Shown here one piece after another: positions 7,155 through 61,520 of a stretch of 64,000 bases of DNA (its first letter is position 1; each line of letters opens with the position of its first letter). The notes under the pieces are model-generated. The model had not been told where the DNA came from. It saw only the letters and a program-made list of their open reading frames with translations, and did not search any database. A program made the translations under genes and the position numbers. This DNA comes from Clavelina lepadiformis (Eukaryota; Chordata; Ascidiacea; Aplousobranchia; Clavelinidae), in contig NC_135241.1 of the NCBI RefSeq assembly GCF_947623445.1, positions 19,718,501-19,782,500 of the forward strand. The letters run 5' to 3'.

Positions 7155-7339
7155 CCAACTTAAGAAATCAGCGATTGAAATGCATGATGAAGCTGCTGTC
7201 ATCATATCAATATCTTTTATCAATTTCAATGCTTGTTGCGCAGATCTGGTAAAAATATGGGTTGCTTTTCGTTTTAACATCGGACTCAGGATTGCGTCAT
7301 CACCTTTCGAAATCGTTTATACTGGTGTTTTGCGGAAGA
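7155..7339 (-). pseudogene. Decayed third copy of the 186-bp dynein-stalk-like exon
   Basis: Read on the minus strand this segment gives ILSPMLKRKATHIFTRSAQQ, then ALKLIKDIDMMTAASS, ending FLSW. It aligns by eye with the open exon at 5058-5243 (ILNRMMNRKAQEISSQSAQ, ELLNHIDMARAHAVSSA, VLAW). The frame is interrupted by an in-frame TAA near the 5' side. The donor after the Trp codon reads ATATCT where the other copies read GTATGT or GTGAGT, so the splice site is lost. Length and end point match the other two copies, making a coincidence unlikely. It is best described as a pseudoexon left by tandem duplication of the tail region of the neighbouring gene. Confidence 0.5.
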
Positions 7340-8968: not shown

Positions 8969-11900
8969 TTAATCTTCCTTCCCCTGGCGATCATTCACTT
9001 CTCTTAGTATCGTCTCACACTGTATTTAGAAATATTGGCAATCGGTTAGTTTCACTTTAAATGGTTTGTTAGTACCAAACAATTATTACTAACAATTATT
9101 ACCAAGATTGTTTATTTTCCAATAAACCAAACCTGTGATACTTGATATATGATCCAATCTTTGATAGCTTGACTCACCCATGCTAAAAACACTGCAGCTG
9201 CTTTGCTTTCGATTGCTACTTCTTCATGGACGTGACCTTTGATGTAGTTGTAAGCTGTCTTCGCAGATGATTTTGTGATGTCACTCGCTTTGCAATTTAT
9301 AATTCTTCTTTTTAAAGCATCTTTGCCTAGTTTTCCAACTAGGACTTGAATGCTTTGCCATTCCTTGATATCGAAAATTGTAAAATCAGTGAAGTGTGCT
9401 TCATTTATTTTTTTTGCAACGAAGCTCTTAGGTTACGAATTATCTTACTTTTAGTTTGCTTTCATTTTCCCCCAGTAACACAAACGTTGCTGCCATGACT
9501 GCGTTAACGCCAGATGGTGGCGCTGAGTAGCTACGGATCTCAGATATCAGGGGCTGTTCTAGAGATAAAACGGTTAAACGCATTTTCTCCAATTCCTGAA
9601 GTTGTTTGATCAATTCTCTTGCATTGTAGATTTTTAAACTGAAAACCTCGTCATCTAAATCTTCCTTAAGATGTTTGCTGGTGACAGGTCCATCTATTTC
9701 AGCAAGAACTGATTCTATACGCGTTATTTCGCGTTCTGCACACGCTTCCTGTAAGGCAGTTTGTAGGCAGGCTTTCAACTTTCTACGAAAATTTGTTTTA
9801 GCTTTATCAATAATATCCAAGTCATTGCTATTCTGTTCTAGTGGAGACGGAAGTACGGCTTCGAAGGCAATGATATCTTGAAGGATGATATTTCTGGAAG
9901 AGAAACATAAAAACAATTTTTGTTGAATAGATAAGTCACAGCCTATATGACTGGAAAAGGGTGCTAAAAAGGTAAAATGCTTATGGGTACCAAAACAATT
10001 TTTTATGGTACCCATAAGCACAAACATCTCTTACTTATCGGCATCATTTTCCAAATCTTCTAACAACATAGCTCTCAGTTGATCTTTTTGTGATTCTGCT
10101 TCCGCATTTTCTAACATGGACTTTTCGATTAACGTGGCTTTCGCTCTTTGTAGAAGTGTTTGTAATTCAACGTCGTCAGGATTCCATGATAGCAGATAGT
10201 CACATGACTCAGCATATGCTAAAGCATTAACGGTTTTATTCAGGTCGTTTTCAGTTAAAGCGTTGTGGAGATCCTCCTTAATGCGTTGCAACTAAAAAAA
10301 ATTCATAATACTGAGGGTGAATTATTGTTCAAGGGTGTATATATTCAGATGGTTATGTCTTGAAACCATTATTGTGTCGCTAGATGCGTTTGCTTTTGGT
10401 TAAAATGCCTGAGGAGATATCGACATCCATGAAATAAACATAAATAAAATAATTAATAAATCCATATATAAATACGATTGCATATTTTAATTTACACGTT
10501 GTCGCATACCTCATTCGTTTTGTTTTTGCATGTAACCAGTAACGTTTTAGCTTCCAATAGTTCATTTGCTGGTATATTCAGTATTTCTGCTGCAGCAATA
10601 GCTTCATTAAGACATTTCGTGCTTTGTATGGATATTGATGAGGCAAAGTCAGCCGATACTATTGTTCGAAGTGTGTTTCTAACTTTCTCTATCTCAATCA
10701 ATGCGTCCTGAAATTGACTTATTTTACAATATAACCTTCATGCTTTACAGCTTTTTTGAACGCAAAACTTCTCAGGATATCGTTTTTCAATTCTTGTTGT
10801 AATACTACACCCAAACGACTGACGTAGTTATCAAGCTACTTTGTAAATATACTATACAAAATAACTCACTTCTTTAATTCCAATGTCCGGAGAAGAGGTC
10901 TGTTGGTTTTCAAGAATGAAAGGATAAGGTGTTATTCTGGATATTTTCATGCGAACCCAAAACAAGGTCCCTACGATTGCAGCTATAAACACCAATCCAC
11001 CGATCAATCCCCCCACGGCATCAATGTTGAAAGTTGATGTTGTTGTTGACGTAGTTTCGCTTGCTGTTGGCGTTGTAATTGCCTAGCATAAACTATTTAT
11101 ATACTCACTATGTGTAAGAATTGTGGATAATAATGAATCAGATCATTTGCATACTTTACCTTCATGTTGACATTCAAGTTAGAAGAACCGTCTGATACCA
11201 TTGACAAATAAATCGTTGTAGTTCCGGTTTTAGGTGTTTTTGAGTTATTCACACTACGCCGGGATCTTTGTGTACCGCTGGAGTTAATACTCACAGTTGC
11301 CACAAACCCCTATTTCAGAACGTTACAGCTTGTTTAGAAATTTCTAGTCTATTGTTAAGATTATAACATTAACGTTTTATTTATGAGCTCATTTACGAAA
11401 ACAAGCTAAAAAAGGAAGTGAACGGTTGATAAGGAATTCGCTGCTCATCTGCTATGTAACTCTCACAAAAACTTACTGCAACTAGTTGAACTGAGCTCAC
11501 GTGGAATGCTGCGCTTGGATTGGGTAAAGTGCCCAGAAATACTATTCCGGAACTGGTTACCGCACTAGTCACGTCAAAACTGATGGTGACAAATCCGGAA
11601 ATAGCAACTTGAATTGAACCGTAGTAGGCGTAGCCCGGTTGCACACCGACCGATACATCCGTGCTATCCTGTAAATATTATTACTTGTCTAATATGCAGT
11701 GATTAAGCATCAGCAGCTATCGAGTTAAAGTTTGCGGTAATGCCATATTTTGTAAGGTTGTATGTTGCATTTAGGTCACCACATATACTTTATTCAATAG
11801 TATTTGTCGAACCGCTTACCGGTATTGCTGCTGACACGGTGCATGCTTGCTGCAATAATGTGTTTTTCAGGTATGTTATTAAAGAACTGAAGTCAGCCAC

Positions 11901-13818
11901 GGTATAGGCATGCTGGCTATCTGGGTCGCTTGCTATTTCATTAATTTCGTTTTGATCAATACCGCTACCGATTCCAATTGCGAACACAGTGATCCCGGAC
12001 GCGTGCGCCTACAGTAATAGGAAAAATAGGTTTGAGCACACCGAACACGTCGAGCTTTTCTCGACTTGACTCCCACTTTAGGAACATTCTAAATATCGAA
12101 GAGAAATCGCGTTTGCACTAATATCAATATGTATACATATTCAAAATTACTCCAAGCTAACCCAGATTCTCGACAACAATATTTTACTTCTACAAAATAA
12201 CAATTTTCGTTATTTAAATATAAGGCCGGGAATGGTGAACTTTCTAATACCACGAAGTAGCAATAAGTAGGACAAATGCAGTTAAAAAGATATTTTATTT
12301 ATGTTGACTAGTTTTGGATAAGGATCCAATTATTCCTCTAAAAAGCTTATAGGCTAGGCCAGTTGGGTCTACTATATTTAAATTTGAGTTTTTCCGTTAA
12401 CTCTTGTGCCGTCCTTTTGACAACTTCATTGTGGGTTAATGAAGTAATAACAACTTACGTTAGCTGCTGGTGCCGTCACATCATCCCCGCTGTGACCGTC
12501 TGTTAAAACAATTAAAACCCGCGGCACCCCTTGGGACAAAGGTCGAGCTCCGTTTCTTTGGCGAAAACCGTTACTGACCACATCAGTAATTGCTAAGCCA
12601 GTTTGTGTGCCACCTGTTAGTTTTACGGCAGTAAATTTAACATTCAAATGATACCCTAAAATTATGTATTTGAAAGTTTGACTGGGTTAACATTACCGCT
12701 AGGATACAAAGCAGATGAGACAGCTGAAGTAAAGTCAGTGTTGGTCGTATGCTGGTTGAAGTAACTGACGAGGTTGACTGCACTAGAGTATACGGACATT
12801 CCTGTACGCACTTCACTTGGGTCAATGTTGAACGACGAGGCAACTTGATCGACAAAGTCCTTGGAGGTTTGAAAATTTGTACTTCCAATGCTTCCTGAAC
12901 CGTCAATGCAGAACCACAAGTCTGTTTCTTGATTTGTGCAGTCTATAAAAATTCGCAAACAGAATCTCAAGCCACTTATTTAAAAAATATATTATTTGTT
13001 CATATGCTTCCGCTGGTAAATTGATATTTTTCGTATTTTCAGTTACCGTAGTCTTTATGCTTACTGTTAGCGGCTTCAAAAGCTGCCACTTGTGCTGTAA
13101 AAGTGCTGATAGAACCACCTGCATTGTAATTAGCGACCCACCAGGTAGCTTGGTCGCTAACGCTTCCTGGCACTGCTGAGGAAAGTAGAAGTTCCATATA
13201 CAGGCGTGCTGCCACAGCCGCGTGTAAAGGTATTCTGTGATAGAGTATATAGCGGGCAGCGATAGTGAAACCGTGTGGCTTTTATACTCACGCTGCTATG
13301 AAAGATATTTTTCTACGCTCAAATCTTGTGATGCTTACGTTTAGGAAATCTAACTTTATGGCAACTCACGTGAAATTGTAATTGTTGAAGTCAATCAAAT
13401 CCGGTCCGAAGTTAAAGCCAATAGCGTTAATTACATCAGAAAGCTGAAATTGCGCGCTTGTCTCCTGGAACCGGGTTTCGATTGCGCTAGATATCTGAGC
13501 GGAAAATGTGAAGTGCTATGTTGTTGCTTCTATAACTCAAATAGTTATAAACAATACACAACAGAAGTATGCAGTATAGCCAATATGGCTACTGTTGTAA
13601 ATGTTTATTAATCATCACCATACCTGCCATATTCCCCGCGCTGCTTCTTTTGATGTAAAGTTGGTTCCGAAGTTGGATTCGACGTATGCTATTCGTTTCA
13701 TGAGTCCGAAATCAGAAGAAAAGACGCCCAAATTTTCCAATTTCTGAATACAAGCAGAGACAACATCTTCCCCGTTAGATCCGGACACAAGAGTGAGGTC
13801 CACGGCTCTTGTGCTTAC
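8969..13818 (-). CDS. Receptor-like protein: lysozyme-like, vWA, one TM span, dynein-stalk-like cytoplasmic tail (5' end incomplete)
   Basis: Fourteen exons phase without a break: 13624-13818, 13370-13494, 13065-13234, 12697-12942, 12459-12655, 11820-12008, 11477-11668, 11160-11309, 10870-11082, 10510-10707, 10035-10291, 9449-9893, 9178-9363, 8969-9019 (about 937 residues). Residues 1-163 contain RIAYVESNFGTNF, GIWQ and WWVANYNAGG, resembling lysozyme/transglycosylase-fold proteins, with the Glu of YVES as candidate catalytic acid (inference). Residues 164-374 are a vWA domain with MIDAS DGSGS, GGTQTG and LTDG. Residues 375-508 are beta-rich and carry RSRRSV, a possible furin-type site. A membrane span follows at about 510-531 (AVGGLIGGLVFIAAIVGTLF). 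The cytoplasmic part is helical, with repeats such as LNEAIAAAEIL. Near residues 828-921, EIRSYSAPPSGVNAVMAATF, VLLGENE and AAAVFLAW match the dynein heavy-chain stalk base. No AAA ATPase is present, so it is not a motor. The signal-peptide exon was not found upstream of 13.82 kb. The last exon ends in TAA. The extracellular part may bind or cleave a glycan ligand, with the tail tethered to cytoskeleton; this is speculation. Confidence 0.72.
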
Positions 13819-16409: not shown

Positions 16410-19400
16410 TTATTCAGTTTTCTTTGCTAATGCCTTGTTAACACGTTTTTCGTAGAGAATTTGAAACAGATCAGCTGGAATCATCCTCGTTATCCAACCC
16501 TAAAAACATGTTCCATTATAACAATTTGGACAAAGGATAAAAAGGGGTAAAATATATCCTAACGTTGCCGTCTGTTGCCATGCATCAAACGCCTCCAATA
16601 TGGCGCAATACTTAGTTGTAAACGTTGTCTTCATACCTCTTTATAAAATCACTGTTTTTTGTAGTACAATGCATTACATTCTTGACTGGCATAGGCTATA
16701 GGTGAAAGTTTTTGACAGTACGGTATTCGATATTGCTGTTACTTCAAGTATTATAAAAATTCCTCAGCTCTTACAAACTAGTGTGTAAAACTTCTATGTA
16801 AAATTTTATAAACCATTGAACTTTGAAATAACATTTGGAATATCACTGTACATTTTTTTCGTTGTTTGATCGTCCTGCTCTACCTTTAGTATAGGATTAG
16901 CATGCCTAAGTGTAAATTGCCTCTTGCCTGAATTGCATGAGGGATATAGCCATGAGCCCATCTCGTCTTGTCAACTGTAGCAAGCCACGACTTGATGAAT
17001 GCTTCGGTTGAAACATATTCTTTGTGACGTGGAAGAAATTTTGTCAAGTTACTTCGAATCATCGATGGCATGCAACTCTGGAATAAATAGAGGGACACTT
17101 TTTACGCAGAAATTAATTTTTCCCGAGATGACCTACAGTGAGTAGAGCATCTGTCTTCTGTGCGAAAGTCTCGAGTTCGATTCTCGGGCCAGGTCATACC
17201 AAAGACTTTAAGAAGGATATTCTCAGCGTTAAGCAGTCAGAAGATGGTGTGAAGAGAACGCAACGCCATAAGTTGATACCTGCCCCCTACAGCGGCATTC
17301 ATTGCGCATGCGGCTGCGAAGCCAAAAGGCTAAAAAACGGAGATTGGCACCGCCCCCTCCCCATTGGGTACGCCACTGGCTTGGACATCAGAACCTGATT
17401 TATTACCCGCACAATCAATTTTGCCATCTCTATATCAAGTCTAAATCACTTACATTTGAGTCAACAGAGTCATCGTTTATAATTATACCAGCATTCCGAA
17501 TCGCCAGAGGCTACGCTATAACAAGCTAAAGTGATCTTAAATAAATAGATATTGTATATAATTTTGCCAGAAATGATAAAAAATAGCGTATATAGTAAAT
17601 GAACTGACTAAGGCTATGTTAACAAGGTGTAAAAATTATGCCAACAATCGAATAATACTGTAGTATGTGTACTGCAGTCATGTCCATTGCTACAAGTTAA
17701 CTTTCATTTCCCAATGTTGCACAACTTACTCCAGAAAGTAACGTTACCCGATTTCAGGTAACTTTCGTAAGTTACCTATACGTAATGTCGTGTAAATGTA
17801 GCTTGTTGTCTCGATCACGCTTCAAGCACACAATTGAACGTCTGCGGTTTTGTAGGAGAAAATATTGACCTTTGCCGCTCAACGCTCAGCATTTCGATCA
17901 TCACGTAGGGGAAACCAGTGTAATTTGGACCCCTTAAGCAAAATCTTTGATAATAACGAAAGTCCTTGGTCGATTTCTTCCAAACTTCACTTGTTTATTC
18001 ACATACATGAAAGGTACAACATAACGAAGTATCGGGCTTAAATAATTTAAACTACCAAATTAAATTTTTTCATGCTAAGGGTCCAATTTACACAACTGTT
18101 GTGTAAAATGGACCCCTTCCATTTTTGAACAAAACATACAACTTAATATTCAATTTTATTCGGATAGCACCTAACTTCACTGTATAAGTTTCTAATTCAA
18201 TGACACTGCTGGTAAATAGTCAATTTTAATTTTTTCAAATGAGGGGTCCAATTTACACAATGTGTGATTGTGCTATCTGGAACCATCGATAACTCACAAA
18301 AATAGAACAACCCATGCAAAAACAGAAACACACATTTACGAACAGTTGTCGCAGTAATAATACTTGGAATCACTAATATCAGCACATTCTTCATGGGCCC
18401 ATTTCTTGCAGTTTTTGCATTGAATCCAGTCTTCATCTGCAGAATCTCCACACACCAGGCAGATGGAAATCTGTTTGTTCTCTGTTTTCCTTCCTCTCTT
18501 CTGTTTCGTTTTTTGTGCACCGCCTCTTTTTGTCACATCACTGTCTCTTTTATTCAGAGTGTTTTTATGAGGAGAACTTGTCAAAATTGTGGCGCGTGAA
18601 GATTTTCGCCGTTTAGTACCAGGATTCATAGATCGGATTCGCTTTGGTAGAGGGCTGATATCTGTGACAGTTACAACACTTTTTTTTTTCTCAGAATAAG
18701 AAATGGATGAGAGTAGGCCTACAGGGCTGGCTTGCATGTCAGAAACTAGATTGCTGGTTTCAGCTGTTTTGTTGATGCAAGCAGGAGTGGTGTTAACTGC
18801 AGTTGAGCTTGCATTTTCCACTAGAGCTGAGCTGAGCTTGTGGTGGCGATTAGATCATCTGAATTCTCAGCTGGATCGGGTTGATCTGTGACATCAGCAG
18901 CAGCAAAATCACCGTCATTAAAGACCAGCATATTAACTGGATAAATTCCGGCCTTTCGAAATCCATTCACCGCACAGCTAACATTTGCAGCTTTTCCGTA
19001 TGCAAGAACAAACAAACGACAAATTTGAAACGCAGAGACTGCTCGTCCAGGATTTGCACGCAGCCACTGCTCAATTTGTTGATAATATAATAGGTCTTCA
19101 GTGGTTTGAAAAAAGTTAAATCTAATGGCTGCATCCGATGACTGGTGTGTGGTGGTAATGAAAGCATAATAACACCACTTTTTGATGCCAACTCTAAAGC
19201 TTCGATATTGTGCGTGTGGCTTTTATGTCCATCTAAGATCAGCAGGACCCTCTCTTCTTGGCTAGGCTTTGCATGCTGGATGAAGTGTTTTATCCATTCC
19301 AAGAATATGTCATTGTTCATCCATCCCTTTTTCTGAAAAAAGGTTCAAAATTTATTACGAACTATTGAGCATAGAGAGACTAACATTTTGTAAAGCAAAG

Positions 19401-22335
19401 CCAAATTTATGCACCATACAGTGATAATAAAACCAATTTTTACGAATAACAAATTTTCAGTATGAGCATAGTTTAATTAATTTATAGCCCAATTGGTTGA
19501 AACATTTGAAAACACTAGCAAACGTAAATAGTGCAGGCTATAAAATTTGACATCTTTAGCATCCCAGTGGTAACAACCACCATTTTGACAGTCCTACATA
19601 GATTCAATGTCGGCACACATAGCATCAACATAGAAAAGATGGGTTTTGCCTGGTAGGATTGCTAGACAATTAAACATGACTCACTTGACAAGTGAACATG
19701 CTTCCTGGAGGAGCTCCATCCTTCAACTCTTCCTTCATACGCACTCGTGGAAAGATGAAGCCTGGTGGGACAAAATTTCCTGCTGCACTCATGCAGCAAA
19801 TAACCGTCACATTTTGTCCTCGCTCTTGACAAGTTATCGAGCTAACTTGATGTTTCCCCTTCTTAGCTAAAACTTTTGACAATTTCTGAACAACGTTTAT
19901 CCCAGATTCGTCCATATTATAAATTCTGGCAGCAGTTAAGTTGTTCTTTTCATAAATGTCATGAATGAGTTCAAAAAACTTAGCTATCTGTGGTTTGTTA
20001 AATCCGGATGCTCTCGCTAGTGATGTTGCCTCCGGGGATCGAAGAGATATTTCTGGATGCCTTTTCAGAAATCCTTTCACCCAATCATAGCCAGCAATTT
20101 TCTTTTCTTTGTTGAATCTAGTAAAAATGTTATTAGCTTCTGCAATTTGGAATGCAAGCTTTTTAAGGTCCATCAATGTCAAGCCATAAAACCTGGCTTC
20201 CATATCTTCAATATGCTTTGCCAATTGGTTTTCAATCTCTTCCGGGAGGTCAGTAGACCTTCCTAACATCTTGCAGCTGCCAAGAGCAATCTTGTTCTTC
20301 TTTTTCAGTCTTCTTAGAAGAGTCGTTTTGGGGACATGAAACTGTTTGGCTGCTTTTTTTATACCCATTGTGCCATCTCTTACAGCCCCTATTGCATGTC
20401 GCATCGCTTCTTCATCCCACTTTCCATACACTCCTTTGCTTTTACGCTCAGCTCTTGTGGTCATGTTTGTACTAAGTTCAAGATCAGAAGGATCACAAAA
20501 TGAAAGTTTAATATCCTAAGAAAACAGGTAATGTTATCTGCCTCCACGTGTAATTTGTAATGTGGGTCCAAATTACACGTTTTATTGGGGTCTATTTTAC
20601 ACAAACCTAAGCTGAAATTTCTTTCAGGCTCTTCACTAAAATCTCAAACTGACAGTCTAATACTGTCATGGTACAGTATCTGCGAATGTTTTAGTTGTCT
20701 CGAAACGTTTAAATTATTTTCCTACCTGCCTCTAGCCTCCGATTATATCGAAATAACGCATGAACTAAAATAAGATCAAGCACCCCTAATAGTTTACTTG
20801 CGTTTTCGTAACTAGACCACAAAAGAAACGAGACCAAACACAACTGCTGCCACGTTTTCTTGCTAACGTCTTCCATGTCGCGTGATGTTTGTGACGTCAC
20901 GTACCGCGATTAGTCTGAAATCAGCCTTGGTCCGATTTACACAGGGGTCCAATTTACACCACTTTCCCCTAATATTAGGTGAAGTTTAGCACTCGACTCA
21001 ACCCCTCATTACTGATTACATATTATTAAATTATGTTGCTTACGTATAGGTCGTTAATGCTCGTATAAAGATGATAGTGTAAATTTGTGAATCAGACTTA
21101 CATGAACTGTAATGCCTTTGCTTTCATACTCGTAGCTTAGTCCTTGAGAAAAGTAGTTAACAAATGTTTTTGTTGCGCAGTACATGATGATATGTGATAC
21201 AGGCTTGACAGCAGCCATTGACGATAAGTTTAAAATAAGTCCTCGTTTTCGTTCCACCATCCCAGGGAGCACAATTTGTGTCATCTGTTAAACAATAACT
21301 TAAAATTAACTTCTAACAGAGAAAGTTGCTCGTATGCCTCCATATACTGTAGCTATATGTAGAGCTTTTGACTTTTCGGAAATATTCTGTACCACTTTGC
21401 GATAAATGTTTATTGATAATTAGTTTTACTTACTTTTACAACCGCTACTGCATTTATCCTGATAATATTTCTTATAAACGTTGAAAGGTTTGGGATATCG
21501 AGGAATCGGTACAGTCCCTGGCCAATGCCAACGTTATTAACCAATGTCCCAATATCGAGACCTTGCAAGAAATCAGCTATTTCGTCGTATATTTCCTCGT
21601 CATCACTAAAATCTATCGTCAGACACTTGGTTTGGACGTTGTGTTTGCTCTCTGAAATTAAAATCGAGCTTTATAAGCTATCCTGGGATCGAAGTAAATA
21701 ATTTGTTCGTGCTAGTGCTTGTTTTTTGGCGGCTCAATAATTTTATTACGTTTATTCTACTCTCTGCAACAGACATCAGTAGCCCACTTACCAATTTCAT
21801 TTGCTACTTTTCTTAATTCTTCGCCCTCGTTACTCATAAGGACTATATTTTGACCACGTGAAGCAAGCTGTTTAGAAAATGAATACTTTTATATAGATAT
21901 ACAGTACATAAGGTCAAAGACATATTGTATTGAAGTAACCTACTACGATATACACAGTACGGACCGTCTGTTGTCTCTGTAAGCAAAAGGAATACCTGAA
22001 GAGCTGTGGCCTTTCCTAAGCCAGTTGAAGATCCCGTTACAACTGCAATAATTGCACAGAATATGTTATGTATATATATAACTACATTGTTATGCGAGCT
22101 TTTTTAACTTAATTGCTTGACCTTTCTTATATAAATGTGTGTCCAATTTTATTGAATTATGACAATTTTATTTTTATCTAAGCATTTACTTACCTGACCA
22201 TTTTCCATATTTACTAAAATCCGGATAAGTGGAAAAGATATACAAACGCCCACCTTCTACTAACTTAAACAGAAGTTTAATGACGAAATACAAGAAAGTT
22301 AAAATGCCTAGATATTGAAAAGCTATACTATACAT
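16410..22335 (-). CDS. HSD gene A: 17-beta-HSD12/HSDL1-like short-chain dehydrogenase
   Basis: Seven exons: 22194-22335, 21996-22042, 21792-21867, 21434-21651, 21102-21284, 16928-17077, 16410-16499 (301 residues). An N-terminal hydrophobic segment (FQYLGILTFLYFVIKLLFKL) anchors the enzyme in a membrane, presumably ER. The Rossmann cofactor motif is VVTGSSTGLG (residues about 48-57). NNVG is at about 126-129, the active-site Ser lies in ILNLSS near 182, and YCATK supplies Tyr196 and Lys200. The run MTQIVLPGMVERKRG is close to 17-beta-HSD type 12 and type 3 (family knowledge), which reduce 3-oxoacyl-CoA or steroid ketones with NADPH; the substrate here is unknown. The C-terminus ends KKTE, a KKxx ER-retrieval signal. 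Intron 5 is about 4 kb because it holds a pogo-like transposon (17908-20969) and a SINE. Intron 6 starts with GC (CAG then GCAAGAGG). The start was chosen at 22335 by alignment with the MDCS starts of the paralogues; an upstream in-frame ATG exists at 22374. Confidence 0.85.
17127..17398 (+). repeat. tRNA-derived SINE, antisense in intron 5 of gene A
   Basis: The 5' head folds loosely as a tRNA. The acceptor strands TGACCT and AGGTCA pair, an A-box-like TACAGTGAGTAGAGC lies at about 17133-17147, and a B-box GAGTTCGATTC is at 17173-17183. It is followed by a body containing GCGGCTGCGAAGCC and AACGGAGATTGGCACCGCC. From memory this body resembles a conserved core shared by some metazoan SINEs (the Nin-DC type), which I cannot verify here. 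The mismatched stems and the long non-tRNA body argue against a functional tRNA gene. Confidence 0.6.
18078..18260. repeat. Subterminal repeats of the pogo element (left side)
   Basis: AGGGTCCAATTTACAC at 18078-18093 is followed after a short loop by its near-perfect inverse GTGTAAAATGGACCCCTT (about 18101-18118), forming a hairpin. A further GGGGTCCAATTTACAC lies at about 18243. The right side has matching motifs at about 20563-20600. They repeat the terminal sequence and are candidate transposase-binding sites. Confidence 0.65.
18336..20464 (-). pseudogene. Pogo/Tigger-like transposase with C-terminal PHD finger, two frameshifts
   Basis: Exon 1 (19685-20464) encodes a psq-type helix-turn-helix (KAAKQFHVPKTTLLRRL, residues about 38-54), a CENP-B-like second DNA-binding region, and the first catalytic Asp in YNMDESG. 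A roughly 350-bp intron (donor GTGAGT, acceptor TTTCAG) joins in frame to exon 2 at 19332. Exon 2 carries the second Asp in LLILDGHKSH and the third in QPLDLTFF, 36 residues later (a DD36D spacing). After KTYY the frame is broken by an apparent 2-bp AT insertion near 19081-19092. The alternative frame resumes with family-typical sequence (AVNGFRKAGIYPVN). A second break at 18824-18838 is a run of three GAGCT units where two would keep the frame. The end of the protein is a PHD-type zinc finger (CLVCGDSADEDWIQC, then CKKWAHEEC, then YCDNC). Both lesions look like recent slippage, so the copy is probably young but inactive. Confidence 0.85.
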
Positions 22336-24739: not shown

Positions 24740-27364
24740 TCATTCAGTCTTCTTTGTCGGTGCTGCCAGCATGACCTTCTTAACTCTCGCCATGGATATC
24801 GCGTTGTATAAATCGGTTGAAATCAACCTAGTCAGATAACCCTGTAAATAGAATCCTAAATATTGAGAGGACTTGAGCTAACAACAAAGAGAATAGTTTT
24901 ACAGAATACGATACTAAACGTGTCGTACATATCGTGATGATAAAAACAACAAAGACGAAAATTGATTTCAATTCTGTTATGTTACATATACAGTAGCATG
25001 CAGCAAAGCATTGCTCGTAGCAATCTTGAAATTCATTGGGCAACGCTCATGACATCGCTACATATTAATTCATTTAATAATTGTTAATATGCTCGTTATA
25101 ACAAACCTTATAGTGAATGCAGTTTTTTTACGATTATAGCCTACTTCTCTCAAAGATAGCAATACGTTAAAATTCCGATGAAAACAATTTTTATAGAAAT
25201 AGACATGCATAGTAATTTTCAAATTAATATACCGTAGCATAACGTTTTTAATGTCTCGTCCCCAATTTTATTTTGGTTACACAAGTGTAAGTAGATTCTT
25301 GCCTGAAATGCGTGAGTCAAATAACCATGAGTCCATCTCGTCTTGTCAACGGTCGCCAACCACGACTTGCAGTAGTCTTCCGCTGAAATCATTTTTTTAT
25401 AACGCGGGAGATATTCCGTCAAGTTACTTTGCACCAACGAAGGCATACAACTCTGGATTAAACATAGTGAAATGCATGCATATTACAAGCTTTTATTTTA
25501 TCAGATATATTGGTTTAGCACAATTAAAATATAAAATTTACCTGAATTGTAATGCCTTTGCTTTCGTACTCGTAGCTTAACCCTTGAGAAAAGAAGTTGA
25601 GGAACGTTTTTGTTGCGCTGTACATTAAGAGGTATGATGTTGGTTTTACAGCTGAGATGGAAGACACGTTTAATATGAGTCCTCGTTTTCGTTCGACCAT
25701 CCCCGGAAGGACAATCTGTGTCATCTGCAAAAATATTACTTAAAATTAGGGAATGAAATTAGTACGTTTTTGGTATAACTCGTCATTTACACCCAGGGTA
25801 CTATTACTTTCTTAAATTGCGAAGCAAAAGTGAGTTTGTCGTTTATCACCACAACGATTTTCGCTGAATGGCCGGTAAATGAAACGGACATGTTTAAAAT
25901 ATTTTCTTCGTCAACTGTGGAAGTGTATGCTATTTGCCAAACATGTGAACTGCATATGCTCTTGTTTAAGACAAACTTAATTCATCGTTGGGTTTGTATC
26001 CTTACAATATATATCGGTAAAACAGTTTCTACTTACCTTTACAGCTGATATTACGTTCACCCGGATTATGTTTCTTATTAGCGTTGAAAGATTTGGGATA
26101 TCGAGAAATTTACCCAACTTATGGCCGATACCAACATTATTAACTAATGTCCCTATGTCAAGCCCTTGCAAGAAATCGGTTATTTGGTCGTAAATTTCTT
26201 CATCGAGGCTGAAATCTATCGCCAGCCACTTTGTTTGCACATTGTATTTTCTCTCTGCAATTTAGATTGACTTTGTAGGTGCTCTCTATAGTACGGATAA
26301 AATAATTTGATGAATTAATTTGTCATTTCACATTGCATCGCTATTATTTACCTATTTCACTTGCCACTGTTTTCAGTTTTTCTTGGTTCCGGCTTATTAA
26401 GACAATGTTTTGACCACGTGAAGCAAGCTATTGTAAATATCGTTTTGGTTAAGTGCTTATAACATAGGAAAATTCAGCAAAGTTTAGCTATCAGATCAAC
26501 CAGACTTATGTTGTTTAAGAAATATATATTTCGCCCTACAACATCTTCAGTTTCTATAAAAGGCAAGCAGTAAAGTACAATATAACGTAAACGATTTAAA
26601 CCATAATAGTTTCTAGTAATGTAAAAATTGTGCTTAGCCAAATAGTGTTAGGAAATAATTAAAAGAAAGTAAAGTATCTGCAATCAAAGAGAAAGTTTAA
26701 CGTTTTGCAGTTAATAAAATTATTGCTTATAATGTATAATGATAAGCACAAAACATTACAATATAGTGAAAAATAGCTACTGTACTTGTGAACTTTATCA
26801 ACACAACGAATACCTGAAACGCAGTCGCTTTTCCAATTCCACTTGTTGGTCCAGTTACAACTATAAAAGCACACATATACGCTGTAGTGAATAGAACTAA
26901 CTATACAAGACTTAACTACCATCTCATTGTATTCATTTCATATTTGAAAACAACGTTTTTTTACCACTTTTTACTATACTGACAAAGAGTACGCTACACG
27001 GCAGGGACCTCGTTTCAGGAGGGGACCTGTACCCCAAACTTTTTAACAACTATCATAGTTTATCACAAGTGAAACTGTATTCTGAGACTGCCAATGCGTA
27101 TCACACCAAGTTTGTCCGCTTCGAAGTTTTCTAGCAAACTCGGTCTCTGCTATACTGTATTTAACCTTTTGGACATCTTTTCGTCCAGTTGTTGTACCAA
27201 AACTGGTTTAGTTTAAACTTACCTGACCATTTGCCATATTGACTGAAATCCGGATATGTGGAGAAGAAATACAAACGAAATCCTTCTCTTAACTTTAGCA
27301 CAAGCTTCACAATAAAATATGAAAAAGTTAAGATGCCAATATACTGAAAAATTGAGCAATCCAT
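24740..27364 (-). CDS. HSD gene B: 17-beta-HSD12/HSDL1-like short-chain dehydrogenase
   Basis: Exons: 27223-27364, 26814-26860, 26352-26427, 26037-26254, 25542-25724, 25303-25452, 24740-24841 (305 residues, open throughout). The start MDCSIFQYIG at 27364 is shared with the C, D and F paralogues. Visible features are an N-terminal hydrophobic anchor, the cofactor motif VVTGPTSGIG, the NNVG motif, the strand leading to the active Ser (LILNVSS), the catalytic YSATK, and a C-terminal KKTE. Exon lengths 1-6 (142, 47, 76, 218, 183, 150 bp) equal those of gene A exactly, showing tandem duplication. Intron 6 has a GC donor (CAG then GCAAGAAT). It is probably an ER-membrane NADPH-dependent ketoreductase; whether it acts on steroids or fatty acyl-CoA cannot be told from the sequence. 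Confidence 0.85.
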
Positions 27365-35371: not shown

Positions 35372-37327
35372 TCATTTATTCTTCTTTTCATTGGCCGCTT
35401 TTAATGCACTCTTCAAGCTAGACCCAACCATTTTATGGAATAAATTGCTTGGAAGTTGTCGCATTATAAATGCCTGCAAATAATGGTTGAAATAACAATA
35501 ACAAACTGAGTAACGTATTTAGATGACGCCACTACGCAGTAGGTGCTTGAAAAGTGCCCTGATATTCACAATCTGGGTGGCTGAACAATATCTGGCTCGC
35601 ATGATGAAGACATACGACAAACGAATTGAAGAGCATTATGTTTTGTGCACGTTATGGGTTAAAATAGAGCAGAATCAATATGGTAAAACTTGCCTCAATT
35701 GCGTGTTTCCAATATCCATGAGTCCATCTTGCTTTACCCACTGTTGCCAACCACGACTTACAGTATTGTTCTGCTGTGGGCATTTTTTGGACTTCACTAA
35801 ATTTTTCTGTCATGTTAGACCGCACTGTCCCTGGCATGCAGCTCTATGTAATAAAATTGTTTCCATATTTAATATCTCATCAGCGTTTAGCCAAATAACG
35901 CAGTGATTGGCGTACACTTTGAACTAATATTGCTCACATGCAGGCTGTTTGCTGTGATTAAACAATATAATTTGTCTTAAAAATACAATACTGTATTAGA
36001 ACTGAAATGCTTGCCTGTATGGTAATGCCTTTACTTTCATATTCATAACTTAGTCCTTGAGAAAAGAAGTTGATAAATGTTTTTGTTGCCGAGTACATGG
36101 TCATTATTTGTATTGGTCTAACAGCTGCCATTGAAGCAACGTTTAAAATAAGTCCTCGTTTTCGTCGAACCATGCCAGGGAGCACAACTTGTGTCATCTG
36201 TTGAGCATAAATAGTTTGTTGTAAATGCAGTACCTTTTGATCTGTCAGTAGCAACGTGATAATCAAAACTCGATTGTTTTTACACTGATAACTTCTCGAC
36301 ATTGTAACTTGAAGTCGAAACCAGCAACTGCCTAGAAAACAGCAACTGCCTAACTAGAAATTAAGAAGAGTATCATATACTAGGCCTATATTGTCATTTG
36401 TTAACAGATAAACGGAAAAATGACGATTTTTACATTTTCATTATTTCTTTAGTTTTGAAAATGATGAAGTACTTCCAGACATTGACATAGTGTACGACTG
36501 AGGGACATAGACACAATGCGCAATGACGTATGACGTATACACATCCTCTTTACTTACCTTTACGACTGACATTATGTTAATTCGAATTATGTGTCTTATT
36601 AAATTTGTAAGATTTGGGTGTTCATGGAAGCAAGAAATTTCCTGAGCAATTCCAACATTATTAACCAGTGTTCCAATATCGAGACCTTGCAAAAAATCGG
36701 CTATTTTGTCGTATATTTCCTCGTCATCACTAAAATCTATCGTCAGACACTTGGTTTGGACGTTGTGTTTGCTCTCTGCAAATACACATGTTTAACACCA
36801 TTAAACTTTGTTAAGAGTTGAGTTTTTATTTAATGTCACTTCACTCTTTTCAAGTTTCATATTCAAACTACTAGCGTAGCTTATACACTCACCGATTTCA
36901 TTTGCCACATTTCTCAGCTTTTCTTCATTTCGGCTTATTAAGACTATGTTTTGACCATATGAAGCCAACTATGCATTTAAAATTGAATACGTCATTAAGG
37001 GTAATAACTGGTTTCACTTTGTTCATTTTAAGCAAACCCATTACCTGAAAAGCAGTTGCCTTTCCGATACCATCCGTAGATCCGGTTACAACTGAAAAGC
37101 ACCGATCAGATGTTATGCAAGTTACTGTATGCTTGCTTGTTGTTTTAGTTTTTAATCTTCATACGAGCCTACGTATTTTGCTTACCTGACCACTTGCCGA
37201 ATTTGCTGAAATCCGGATAAGTCGAGAAGATATACAAGCGACTGCCTTCTATTATCTTCAGTACAATCTTGACGATGAAATACAGAGAAGTAAAAATGCC
37301 AATATACTGAAAAACTGAACAATCCAT
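35372..37327 (-). CDS. HSD gene C: 17-beta-HSD12/HSDL1-like short-chain dehydrogenase
   Basis: Exons: 37186-37327, 37045-37091, 36893-36968, 36558-36775, 36015-36197, 35694-35843, 35372-35473 (305 residues). It starts MDCSVFQYIG; the N-terminal segment is hydrophobic. Motifs: VVTGSTDGIG, LVNNVGI, the active-site strand GLILNVASM (Ala replaces the first Ser of the NLSS or NVSS found in A and B, the second Ser remains), YSATK, and C-terminal KKNK. It is unusual in having two GC-AG introns: intron 5 (CAG then GCAAGC) and intron 6 (GAG then GCAAGT). Introns are short (roughly 85 to 540 bp), the most compact copy in the array. Function is inferred as an ER-bound reductase from family membership only. 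Confidence 0.84.
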
Positions 37328-39630: not shown

Positions 39631-39856
39631 CAACATTTATTATCGATTTTGGAACACAGTAGATGGTATTTATTAGGGTTTTACCCTGACTTTTGTTAAG
39701 TTGAAGTGAATTTGGAACTGGAAACCAGTTAGTAAAACTGGGCTAGGCAAGGGCATTTCTTGCACTCAGCTATAATGAATTTTGCTTGTTATTGTATTTT
39801 ATTACTACCTTACAGACGAGAGTTGTAGTAAATAGTATTGGATTGTTTATAGTAAA

Positions 39857-41163
39857 ATGGCTGCTAGAAGGTTTAGTGCTAATGATGTACTTGAAATGCT
39901 TGATTCTGAAGATGAAAATAATTCAGACATGGAGGTTGATGAAGAGAGTGATTTTTCTGATTCAGATATGGAAATGAGTTATGATGGGAGCTCTGATCCT
40001 GATGAGCACTCAGACAGTGATGGATCTACCTCTAATGATGTTGTAGACTCTAATGGATGGAGAGTATGGCATGATAATGACAGTGATTTTCCTCATCACC
40101 CATTTACAGCTACTGATGTGGGACCAAACTTGGAAAAGATCCCAGAAACAGAATTGGAATATTTTCAAAATTTTATGTCGAATGAAATATTTATGGAAAT
40201 TTTGGTGGCAACAAATGCATATGCAACAATACGACTACAGAAAAAAAGATTTGTAAAGACTTCTGTATGGTATGGTTGGCAAGATTTAACTTTGCCTGAA
40301 TTAAAGAAAATTTGTCGCGTCAAGATCTGCCGTTTACATCGAGGATCGTGATGCATTTAGTTGGCAAGCTGCTGTCAAAAGTCAGAGCAAGTGGTTATCA
40401 TATATATACAGACCGGTTTTATACAAGCTACACTCTAGCAAAAGAACTGCTTCAGAATAAAATCCACCTTACTGGAACTATCCAGAAGAATAGGGTTGGA
40501 CTACCCACTGAAGTAAAGCGTTTGCGATTGAAAAATTTACAGTTGAAAGCATACCGTCATCCAGAAAATATTCTAACACTTGGATGGCAAGATAGACGCT
40601 TGATACTGATGCTCAGCACCTGGCACAATGTGGACACTGCACCCCACAGTCGTTGGCGAAATGGGAGGCAGGAAGATGTAGAGAAACCTGATGTAATCCG
40701 TGATTACACAGCTAACATGGGCGCAGTTGATCGTTCTGATCATTACTGCGCATCATACTCCTTCACACGAAAAACGCTGCGGTGGTGGAGAAAGCTATTT
40801 TTCTGGTTGGTTGAAGTATGCATGGTTAACTCATTCTTGGTTTACAAGGAGATGCAACACCTTAGAGATTCAAGACAACTACAATATAGAAACAAGGTGA
40901 TTGTGCAACTAATAGGAGACGTCCGCAACAGGAAACCGAAACGAGGAAGGCCAAGTGAAAGCGATTCTGCTGAGCGCCTCAACAAATCACCACATTTCAT
41001 CAAAAAAGGAGCAAGAGGTCACACAAAGAATTGCATGGTTTGCAACACCAAAGAACAAAGGAAAACCACCTTATTCTTTTGTGAAACATGCCAAAGAAAA
41101 CCTGGTCTTCATCCAGGAGAATGCTTCAAAAAATATCACACCCAAGTCACCTACAAAGACTGA
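39857..41163 (+). pseudogene. piggyBac (PGBD4-like) transposase, central deletion
   Basis: The first frame (39857-40351) carries the acidic N-terminus typical of the family (LEMLDSEDENNSDMEVDEE) and the start of the catalytic domain (LTLPELKK). At about 40312 the sequence jumps, in another frame, to the region around the second catalytic Asp (YHIYTDRFYTSYTLAKELL). It continues through the third Asp (NMGAVDRSD) to the C-terminal cysteine-rich domain (CMVCNTKEQ, then FFCETC, then GECFKKYH). The segment that should hold the first catalytic Asp is missing, so the protein cannot be active. The element may still be mobilised by an intact relative because both ends are perfect. Confidence 0.85.
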
Positions 41164-51184: not shown

Positions 51185-53010
51185 TCATTTCTTTTTCTCC
51201 AATTCTTTCATTATTTTCGCTCCAGGTTCCATATAAAAATAGTCTGACAGTTTTTGTACTAAAGCAGTTGGAATTTTCTCCCACACCCAGGCCTGTAAAA
51301 ATAGTTGACACAAGAATCACAAACTGAACTATATCACATTTTTAGTGTGTTGATAGATAAAGATATATAATTTAGAGGAAATGTCAGACGTTTTACCTCA
51401 ACTTCGTGTTGCCAGTGACCATGAGTCCATCTTGCCTTGTCTACTGTTGCCAACCATGACGCACAGTAGTCTTTAGGGCTGGTCATTTTTTCTAAATCGC
51501 CAAATTGTTGTGACAGTTTAGTCCCAACTGCACCAGGTCTGCAACTCTGTGAGAAATGACATCGATTTTAGTTCCAAACTATTCTCATCGGACTATAAAG
51601 CACTAGGATTGATATTTCTCTGGTAACACCCGCTGATATAACTGACAAAACCTCCACGAGTATGTATCTGATAAATGTATCAAACTTGACAATACCATAT
51701 CGTTTTACGAAAATCTACTCACAATATTGCAATTATGTACACGTAACACAAGAATTCAATCGCACACAGCAAAAATTAAAACTACGACGCTTACGAAACA
51801 CACATGTGTTGTGTCAGGCAACCCAAAACATCCCTTAATTAAAGTGATGCAAACAATAAGCAGACACTTCTGCCACCTGTTGACCAAGATTTTGCTGAAT
51901 AATATGTATAGGCTACTTGTCTTGGTTAACATTATAAAAAAAAATACTTTGATAAATGATTACAGTAGGACTTTCATATCGGCTTCAGCTTTCATCTTTA
52001 CTAAATCCCGCGAACGGCATTCAGAGAAAATGTATAGTACGCCTATGGCAAACGTTTTCAATATTTGGCCGACACCTGTCTGTATCATAAGCAAAACTAA
52101 CACCTTAACAAAGAAACAATTATTCTATTTACTCTAGGCTAAGAATTGTGAAGAAATAAGATATACTTGAATGGTAATGCCTTCGCTTTCATATTCATAA
52201 CTTAGTGCTCGAGAAAATAAGTCGACAAATGATTTTGTTGCATTCGTTATTGCAAATTTTCCGATTGGTTGAAGAATTGTAAATGCAGACAAATTCAAAA
52301 TAAGTCCTCGTTTTCGTTCCACCATTCCAGGGAGCACAATTTGTGTCATCTGTGAAAACATTTTTAACATACAATTACTTTCTCTAAATATCTTATATTG
52401 TTCATAACTGTATATAGTCCAAACTTCCTAACGCCTTCTTTAACGAAACCGTTTTGGATTTTTCTTTTTTATGCACAATATATCAATTCCCAAGGTAACC
52501 TAAAGTTTCTAAATTGCATTCAAATTTTATGTTAATTTAATTAAACTAAAAAAAAACGGGAATTATAGATGAAAAGTAATTTTTGCATTGCTACCTCCAA
52601 TTTAAAAAAGGATTATTACTGTATACATTACGGCAAAAGCACTACTGACGATCCCTACTACAAAACTACACACTACGCAATCTATAAATTTTGGAAACTT
52701 TCATTCCCGACAACGACTTTCACATTATTTGACTTTCCATGTCCAGGATGAATAGGGTACAGTTTCCAAACACAATCTTACACGATGCGTGATTTTCACG
52801 CGGCAGCACATTTGCAAAGAGTTTTGTGACTTGAACAATGCATTGTGTATATCTTGTTATGTTCACAAACATATATCTGCTGTACCCACCTTCAGAGTTG
52901 GCATTATGTTCACTCGAACCAGATTTCTAATAATCAGTGAAAGATTGGACTGTTCAAGAAAGCGAACAAGCTCTTGGTCCGTTCCAACATTATTGGAACA
53001 GTTTAACATC
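51185..53010 (-). pseudogene. HSD gene E: 5'-truncated, catalytically degenerate paralogue
   Basis: Exons 5-7 are intact and open: 52167-52349, 51397-51546, 51185-51292, with canonical GT-AG junctions. The 3' part of exon 4 (52890 to about 53010) survives (LSLIIRNLVRVNIMP). Its 5' half and exons 1-3 are absent and replaced by repeat DNA, so the cofactor-binding half of the fold is missing. The surviving half also lost key residues. The YSATK of the paralogues reads TNATK, replacing the catalytic Tyr, and NLSS reads NLSA. The C-terminus is EKKK rather than KKxx. Intron 6 begins GT here, unlike the GC in all five paralogues. It is most simply a pseudogene, but the preserved frame in three exons leaves room for a transcript with a new 5' exon. 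Confidence 0.75.
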
Positions 53011-60400: not shown

Positions 60401-61520
60401 TTAGAAGTACAAGCCCATATCCATAACATTTGAACGCGCAGCATCAAAGCTGTGAAACCTATAGCGCATAGGAAGTGTCGGCCAATGCCAAAGCGGTTTT
60501 CTAAGGCGATCATATGATGCTGAGCCAACTGGTTCTGAATCGGTGGGTCATAATCTCCTACAGCGCCTTATTCACACAAATTGAGCCACTTATGCGACTG
60601 CCAATAATGAGAAACTGAGCTTTAGGCATCCTGATTGTACAATCTGTGCTAATACTTCCAAAACCGAAGTGCACTATTGTTCAATTTAAGGACCGTAGAT
60701 TGCCGACTATTGTTATTGCGGAATACGTGTAATCGTACTTATACTCACCTTTATAACTGATATTACGTTGAGGCGTATTATATCTCTAAGGAACTTTGAA
60801 AGATTTGGATGTTTATGGAAGCAAGAAATTTCCTGAGCAATTCCAACATTATTAACCAGTGTTCCAACATCAAGACCTTGCAAAAAATAATCTATTTTTT
60901 CGTATATTTCTTCGTCATCACTAAAATCTATCGCCAGACACTTGGTTTGGACGTCGTGTTTGCTCTCTGCAAATACATATGTATCAGTTCAAAAACATCA
61001 AGGCTTTATCAAGAGTAGAGTATTTAAGTGTTAGTGTACTATTTTGTATTTCTAAAAAACATTATTTGTGTAACTTACACTGTACTATACTCACCGATTT
61101 CATTCGCCACATTTTTTAGTTTTTCTTCATTTCGGCTTATTAAGACTATGTTTTGACCACGTGAAGCTAGCTGCAGTAGTACATATTACAATTTACATGG
61201 CTAACATAAACTGCTGTCGTTTATCCTGTTTCTTACAAAACAGTTCCTACCTGAATGGCAGTTTCTTTTCCTATGCCATCGGTCGACCCTGTTACAACTG
61301 GAAAATAAAAATTAGAAATACTATTTGTGTTATTGCGCTTTTAGTCTTATGGTCACATAAACCAGATATTTTTTATACCTGACCACTTGCCATATTTGCT
61401 GAAATCTGGATAAGTCGAGAAGATATACAAACGACTGCCTTCTATTATCTTCAGTACAATCTTGAGGATGAAATACAAAGAAGTAAAAATGCCAATATAC
61501 TGAAAAACTGAACAATCCAT
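57478..61520 (-). CDS. HSD gene F: 17-beta-HSD12/HSDL1-like short-chain dehydrogenase
   Basis: Exons: 61379-61520, 61251-61297, 61095-61170, 60749-60966, 57990-58172, 57679-57828, 57478-57576 (304 residues). It starts MDCSVFQYIG with a hydrophobic anchor. Motifs: VVTGSTDGIG, LVNNVGI, VLNLSS, YSATK, KKLN at the C-terminus. Exon lengths match gene D exactly and differences are few, so this is the younger duplicate pair. Intron 6 has a GC donor (GAA then GCAAGT). Intron 4 is about 2.6 kb against 0.95 kb in gene D because of transposon insertions. The reading frame is fully open, so the gene is probably functional. Confidence 0.85.
58570..59058. mobile_element. hAT-like non-autonomous element in intron 4 of gene F
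   Basis: The left end GTGGGGTGTCCAACCTTTTT followed by GGCC, and the right end, inversely, CACGTGCAAGCCTAATTTGG, are degenerate inverted repeats with CGCGGGCCA words inside. It directly follows the host sequence CATAGTCTAGA. No clean target duplication was found, so the boundaries are approximate. Confidence 0.5.
59791..59826. mobile_element. 36-bp relic or minimal MITE
   Basis: Reads CATAGATTAAC at the left and TATAGGATATCTATG at the right, flanked by a perfect 8-bp duplication GTTCAAAC (59783-59790 and 59827-59834). The right end is identical to that of the 117-bp MITE at 55654-55770. Almost the whole core is gone. Confidence 0.7.
60106..60299. mobile_element. 194-bp hAT-type MITE in intron 4 of gene F
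   Basis: Inverted ends CAGGGATGTCCAACCT/AGGTTGGACATCCCTG are flanked by GTCTAGAC (60098-60105) and GTCTAGAA (60300-60307), a 7-of-8 target duplication. GGGCCGCA words recur inside. Confidence 0.85.

Follow-up and report, generated by a model that had tools for sequence, protein, structure and literature searches.

The 64,000-nucleotide stretch of the Clavelina lepadiformis genome considered here (hereafter the window; positions 19,718,501-19,782,500 of NC_135241.1, contig C2 of a 209-Mb genome whose loci we name by contig, C1-C8, and position) carries on its minus strand a 15-exon gene (14285-8969), which on reconstruction from the sequence yields one open frame of 951 amino acids (aa). Its predicted product comprises, from the outside of the cell to the inside, an SLT-like domain, a vWA domain, a region with an RSRR motif, a Ser/Thr-rich stem, a single membrane span, helical segments and a tail homologous to the microtubule-binding domain (MTBD) of the dynein stalk. 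All 14 introns (77-450 bp) are bounded by GT-AG and keep consistent phases, and an AATAAA hexamer read from the sequence lies at 8820-8815, about 150 bp past the stop codon. A first-pass annotation of the same DNA had described 14 exons with canonical splice sites in exact phase; the splice sites and the single frame stand, but it had overlooked the exon at 14285-14209. This first exon provides the start codon and a signal-peptide-like stretch (aa 1-26, MKIFPFCSILIVLYYTNVRG), called by eye without a predictor, and splices in phase to exon 2. It was recovered again by an exon-chain search, a home-made procedure whose coding model was trained without this gene and whose splice model was trained on this gene's introns. 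The stricter form of the search ran from the signal exon to the tail in 16 exons, dividing exon 5 and extending exon 14 downstream; the looser form arrived at 21, among them additional small ones, with exons 5, 8 and 10 split and exon 9 shortened, and kept exons 1 to 15 in one chain despite the split of the membrane-span exon 10.

The predicted ectodomain and membrane span

The N-terminal domain is encoded by exons 2-4 (13825-13624, 13494-13370 and 13234-13065) and matches the Pfam SLT family (PF01464; cut-off 21.3 bits) with 22.4 bits (E 1e-4) when the full-length protein is scanned and with 25.4 bits (E 1.1e-5) for the N-terminal 191 aa. The same region is matched by PHROG 2013, annotated as a lytic tail protein (E 1.2e-4). 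Three SLT-like motifs can be read, namely AYVES-NFG, ARGIWQIS and ANYNAGG; we assign their roles by assumption, including that of the Glu within YVESNFG, which we take to be the catalytic residue. A PDB sequence search with the N-terminal region recovered no lysozyme among its three matches (E 0.37 and above), so that support for the assignment comes entirely from Pfam and PHROGs, together with the motifs. With a score that clears the Pfam cut-off modestly, the domain is best described as a putative relative of transglycosylases and lysozymes, in agreement with the putative lysozyme-fold region of the first-pass annotation.

Exons 5-7 (12942-12697, 12613-12459 and 12008-11820) encode a vWA domain (aa 199-368) that matches PF00092 with 157.7 bits (E 4.3e-46; cut-off 23.8) and finds collagen VI, PTM1 and integrin alpha I domains in the PDB. 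Its metal ion-dependent adhesion site (MIDAS) appears complete by eye (DGSGS, GGTQT, TDGHSGDD), as had been claimed from the outset. It is followed in exons 8-9 (11668-11477 and 11309-11160) by a probably beta-rich region, which matches no family in the Pfam scan and contains a furin-like RSRR at aa 467-470 (about 11267-11256). Furin processing at this point is plausible, because two of the three paralogs modeled on C2 have an RKKR at a corresponding position, the third being without it. Exon 10 (11082-10870) then encodes the Ser/Thr-rich stem, a transmembrane helix (aa ~525-545, about 11016-10954) with a hydropathy peak of 2.3 over 19 residues, and the basic start of the cytoplasmic part. A type I topology, with the vWA domain outside and the tail inside as the first-pass annotation had proposed, agrees with the signal-peptide-like start and the single membrane span.

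A dynein-type MTBD at the C-terminus

The cytoplasmic part begins with helical segments in exons 11-13 (10707-10510, 10291-10035 and 9893-9449), which extend to 9569. Over exons 11-12 and most of exon 13 these match no Pfam family above its cut-off, and an AlphaFold model of exon 13 alone was helical at low confidence (mean pLDDT 48.9) and was not used for a fold search. The MTBD-like module (aa ~834-935) is encoded by the last part of exon 13 together with exon 14 (9568-9449 and 9363-9178), and exon 15 (9019-8969) adds the final 16 aa and the stop codon without a return coiled coil (CC2). Comparison with the dynein stalk profile, named in the first-pass annotation as the check on its dynein reading, bore that reading out: PF12777 (MT) matches the last 139 aa with 29.1 bits (E 6.6e-7; gathering cut-off 24), and is also reported for stretches of 226 aa (27.6 bits), 129 aa and 117 aa (28.8 bits). 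When the entire protein of 951 aa or its tail of 378 aa was scanned at E<=1 the family was not reported, perhaps an effect of the HMMER pre-filter; scans of exon 13 by itself and of exons 14-15 by themselves did not report it either. The alignment spans profile positions 100-208 of 344, which at the level of sequence corresponds to the stalk tip with helices H1-H6. Thus, of the earlier description of an element resembling the base of the dynein stalk, the homology to the stalk holds, but base as its identity is ruled out, as the alignment covers the tip. The proline conserved on the H1 side of the domain is represented in the tail by a Pro-Pro; no more than a stub is left of the first stalk coil (CC1), and the protein stops 16 aa past the H6 Trp. 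No AAA domain is found among the Pfam matches of the 951 aa, in line with the initial observation that a AAA motor is missing.

Searches of the PDB consistently returned dyneins. The single tail sequence gave nine matches at E<=10, every one of them dynein (best E 0.015). A profile of the two copies present in the window (see below) had dynein heavy chains in the first 55 places of the best 60 of 111 matches (best E 9.4e-9; first non-dynein E 0.35), five of these rows, under another or a generic label, being counted as such from a length of more than 4100 aa. With a profile of eight tails, the best 60 of 80 matches were all dynein heavy chains (top E 4.5e-9), where 8glv_Fm, 8glv_Cn, 8glv_JG, 8glv_Kg and 9fqr_Hl, which bear another or a generic label, were counted from their length of 4151-4625 aa. 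Six of the eight tails match PF12777 at E<=10 (best 7e-7), and an hhalign comparison of the eight tails with six dynein MTBDs gave 98.6% and an E-value of 1.3e-15, valid for that single comparison. Ten columns (E, P, P, V, V, L, W, I, S, W) are common to at least six of the eight tails and at least five of the six dyneins, and the window gene carries all ten. In a tree of the 14 sequences, a small one, the six dyneins group together (support 0.83) with the second copy from the window beside them (0.90). The profile searches of the PDB and the hhalign comparison rule out a chance similarity between helical proteins; by its sequence, the tail is homologous to the MTBD of the dynein stalk.

Two further pieces of this kind lie downstream of the gene on the minus strand. 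The second copy (5483-5349, 5243-5058 and 4979-4932) is open and has the same intron positions, with boundaries set by eye, and scores against PF12777 slightly below the cut-off of 24 (23.4 bits, E 3.6e-5). The third (7155-7304) is a fragment resembling exon 14 only and is 42% identical to the second over 50 aa. These copies could serve the gene as an alternative 3' terminus or be left over from a second one.

Recurrence of the tail in the genome

We searched for relatives of the tail in the genome itself and, beyond it, in the PDB, Pfam and PHROGs. A tblastn search of the genome gave 16 matches, five of which are exons of the window gene, one the second copy and ten located at six other loci (C3:8.51 Mb, C5:0.30 Mb, C5:2.25 Mb, C7:9.34 Mb, and C8 at ~19.07 and ~19.08 Mb); all 13 matches of a second tail query fall within these loci or the window gene. 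The tail is thus known, with differing front ends, at seven loci including the window gene, a count that, like the others from tblastn, is a lower bound. Identity of the other tails to the window tail is 28-42%. The second half of the MTBD sits on an exon that has the same start, end and phase 0 at all seven loci and in the second copy of the window, as far as boundaries set by eye allow, and the terminal exon that follows was verified in the window gene, the second copy and C8 only. In three dynein genes read in the same genome the intron positions differ from those of the tail genes.

The two tandem genes on C8 (A and B) repeat the whole layout, with a signal-peptide-like start, an SLT-like region, a vWA domain, a membrane span, helical repeats and an MTBD; the vWA domain of gene B, with one exon placed by eye, matches PF00092 at E 6.8e-31. 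A third gene there (C), read in part, resembles the N-terminal region of the window protein at a tblastn E of 4e-6. The MTBDs of the two tandem genes are under constraint, with 0.128 nonsynonymous (dN) and 0.388 synonymous (dS) changes per site over 107 codons (dN/dS 0.33). Together with the open frame of 951 aa, this repetition of the same join supports the original claim that the fusion is one reading frame and makes an artifact unlikely. Within gene B a four-exon helical cassette occurs three times (C8:19081050-19084800), apparently because the cytoplasmic spacer was amplified recently within the gene. In the vWA of the C8 genes the MIDAS has degenerated to DNSAP (C8:19087256-19087438), and metal-dependent binding is therefore probably lost there.

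At C5:2.25 Mb the ectodomain is mucin-like and rich in Thr, and is followed by a membrane span (by eye), helical repeats and an MTBD. A candidate membrane span was seen at C5:0.30 Mb, and none was noticed, by eye only, at the C7 and C3 loci. The models of these loci are rough: a single stop at a modeled junction occurs in each of gene A, the C5:2.25 Mb gene and the C2 paralog 19883k (see below), and two occur in C3, while the C7 model has part of its MTBD in the wrong frame.

Paralogs of the ectodomain on C2

An ectodomain query against the genome gave 92 matches, many to the vWA domain only; matches in the SLT region identify seven further paralogs on C2 near the window and one on C1. The three modeled C2 paralogs (19717k, 19872k and 19883k) keep the SLT-like region, the vWA domain and the next region. 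Among them, 19717k has a clear membrane span and an uncertain 3' end, a longer stretch having run into exons for Ig domains, and a fourth, 19706k, read in part, ends by eye in a membrane span and a short tail. Two neighbors that were read have departed from the third SLT motif (TNYTTSS and QYYTSNG), and among three paralogs scanned for SLT it is below the cut-off in one (13.3 bits) and not reported in two. The full design is common to the divergent C2 and C8 branches and probably goes back to their ancestor, some copies having later lost the tail; the order of these events is our reconstruction.

Other features of the window

Exons of a short-chain dehydrogenase lie on the minus strand at 35961-36791 (two pieces in Pfam, one of them below the cut-off), and similar exons were seen by eye on the same strand at 25980-26261, 52137-52427 and 60716-60988, probably a tandem family. 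Transposon-related sequences include Psq/Tc5-type transposase-like frames with a PHD-finger piece (18339-20515, minus strand) and a transposase at 39836-41160 (plus strand) with a DDE_Tnp_1_7 match at 40300-41160, which we take to be of piggyBac type. Rfam and tRNA scans across the window gave no matches.

Functional interpretation

The gene model, domain order, tail homology, recurrence and constraint on C8 can be read from the sequence, and a receptor role, ligand, processing, microtubule binding and cell type are our inference. Outside the cell, the likely ligand of the SLT-like and metal-dependent vWA domains would be a glycan, peptidoglycan or a matrix component, and a furin-like cut may process the ectodomain. 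The cytoplasmic helical segments would serve as a spacer leading to the dynein-type MTBD, which may act as a passive foot tying the membrane, or a clustered receptor, to cytoplasmic or ciliary microtubules. We give about an even chance to the proposal that the protein is such a motor-less type I tether between membrane and microtubules. Dynein's grip is governed by the sliding of CC1 against CC2 and by movement of H1, according to PMC6629372, which also describes an MTBD that is permanently primed and so leaves room for a passive foot. With neither a AAA ring nor CC2, the window protein would therefore be no motor and its tail not switchable by coil sliding.

Several observations weigh against this proposal. 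CC2, with its second conserved proline, is absent from the protein, and the binding constructs of PMC6629372 contain both coils. Of the contacts of mouse dynein-1, K3299 is replaced by Gln and R3382 by Ile, whereas the equivalents of R3306 and E3378 are kept and R3342 falls near a Lys; the residue mapping is our own, and the list of tubulin contacts and the mouse numbering, except for K3299, are presumed. The MTBD with its end has a net charge of +1 as against +3 for the mouse stretch, and the C8 tails have Phe where the last Trp is expected. On the side of the ectodomain, the N-terminal resemblance of the C8 genes to the window gene is weak in places (tblastn E 0.06 for A and 0.005 for B), Pfam SLT was not reported for the gene B protein, and no MTBD was found in four C2 paralogs (19717k, 19872k, 19883k and 19706k), so that the ectodomain can do without the tail.

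The missing CC2, the two lost contact residues and the low charge would all be expected if the MTBD fold had been turned into a docking module for other proteins, in signaling, trafficking or attachment to another cytoskeletal partner, with microtubule binding lost; the divergence of the other tails behind differing front ends points the same way. Against this stand the dynein-conserved columns kept in the tails and the purifying selection on those of C8, both of which could also be seen if the fold were kept and microtubules no longer bound, and we regard a docking role as a real possibility, somewhat short of even. That the gene joins two neighbors or members of an operon, a membrane protein ending at exon 10 and a cytoplasmic helical and MTBD protein, would account for the C2 paralogs in which an ectodomain, in two cases with a membrane span, was found and no tail was detected, and read-through at the exon-10 donor indeed meets a stop within a few residues. 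Exons 10 and 11 are, however, in phase and just 162 bp apart. Exon 11 lacks an ATG in frame and the first one lies deep in exon 12, yet exons 11 and 12 are both open in that frame; a membrane span followed by the tail is likewise seen in the genes on C8 and at C5:2.25 Mb. The phase and these layouts, together with the constraint on the C8 tails, make an artificial fusion highly improbable.

A different emphasis would make the protein an antibacterial enzyme of the cell surface or a pattern-recognition receptor in the first place: its SLT domain would cleave or bind peptidoglycan, and the tail would do no more than position it, for example on cilia or phagocytic membranes. The SLT score above the cut-off, the presumed catalytic Glu and the YNAG-like motif of the window gene speak for it, as do the tandem C2 ectodomain paralogs, reminiscent of fast-evolving recognition families. 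The erosion of the third SLT motif in two neighbors and the sub-cut-off or unreported SLT of the three scanned paralogs count against it, and we consider it unlikely as the main role; as it concerns the ligand, it is compatible with a microtubule tether. We tentatively propose, at not quite an even chance, that animals reused a motor-free dynein foot as the cytoplasmic end of a receptor-like family with exchangeable ectodomains (SLT-vWA or mucin-like).

Comparison with known systems

The individual domains are known, and it would be their combination that is new: we found no printed description of the predicted architecture in open-licence PubMed Central, nor, by title or start of abstract, any membrane protein with a dynein MTBD there. 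The SLT-like domain shares with SLT lytic transglycosylases, which we take to form GH23 together with goose-type lysozymes, the Glu, G-I-W-Q-I and YNAG-like motifs; it differs in being fused to a vWA domain on a membrane protein and in the erosion of the motifs among its paralogs. The strong vWA match and intact MIDAS resemble those of collagen VI, integrin alpha I and mussel thread matrix proteins, whereas no further integrin or collagen domain appears in the Pfam scan. With the dynein stalk (PF12777) the tail shares homology over ~105 residues, including the H1-side Pro-Pro and the conserved E, W, I, S and W, whereas it lacks the AAA motor and CC2 and is joined through helical segments to a membrane span.

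To our knowledge, the dynein MTBD has been described at the end of a motor. Membrane proteins predicted to bear it, at seven loci of one genome and in more than one kind of protein, make the idea of a free-standing microtubule foot testable, and natural relatives of the MTBD without CC2 bear on the need for the stalk coil in binding. Such an arrangement suggests, short of proof, that some receptors plug directly into microtubules; if so, a ligand outside the cell would be coupled mechanically and directly to microtubules or to the axoneme of cilia. We know of no membrane protein that reaches microtubules through a dynein MTBD. The closest functional parallels would be CLIMP-63 and STIM1 (through EB1), likewise membrane proteins with a cytoplasmic link to microtubules, which use binding regions unrelated to the dynein MTBD.

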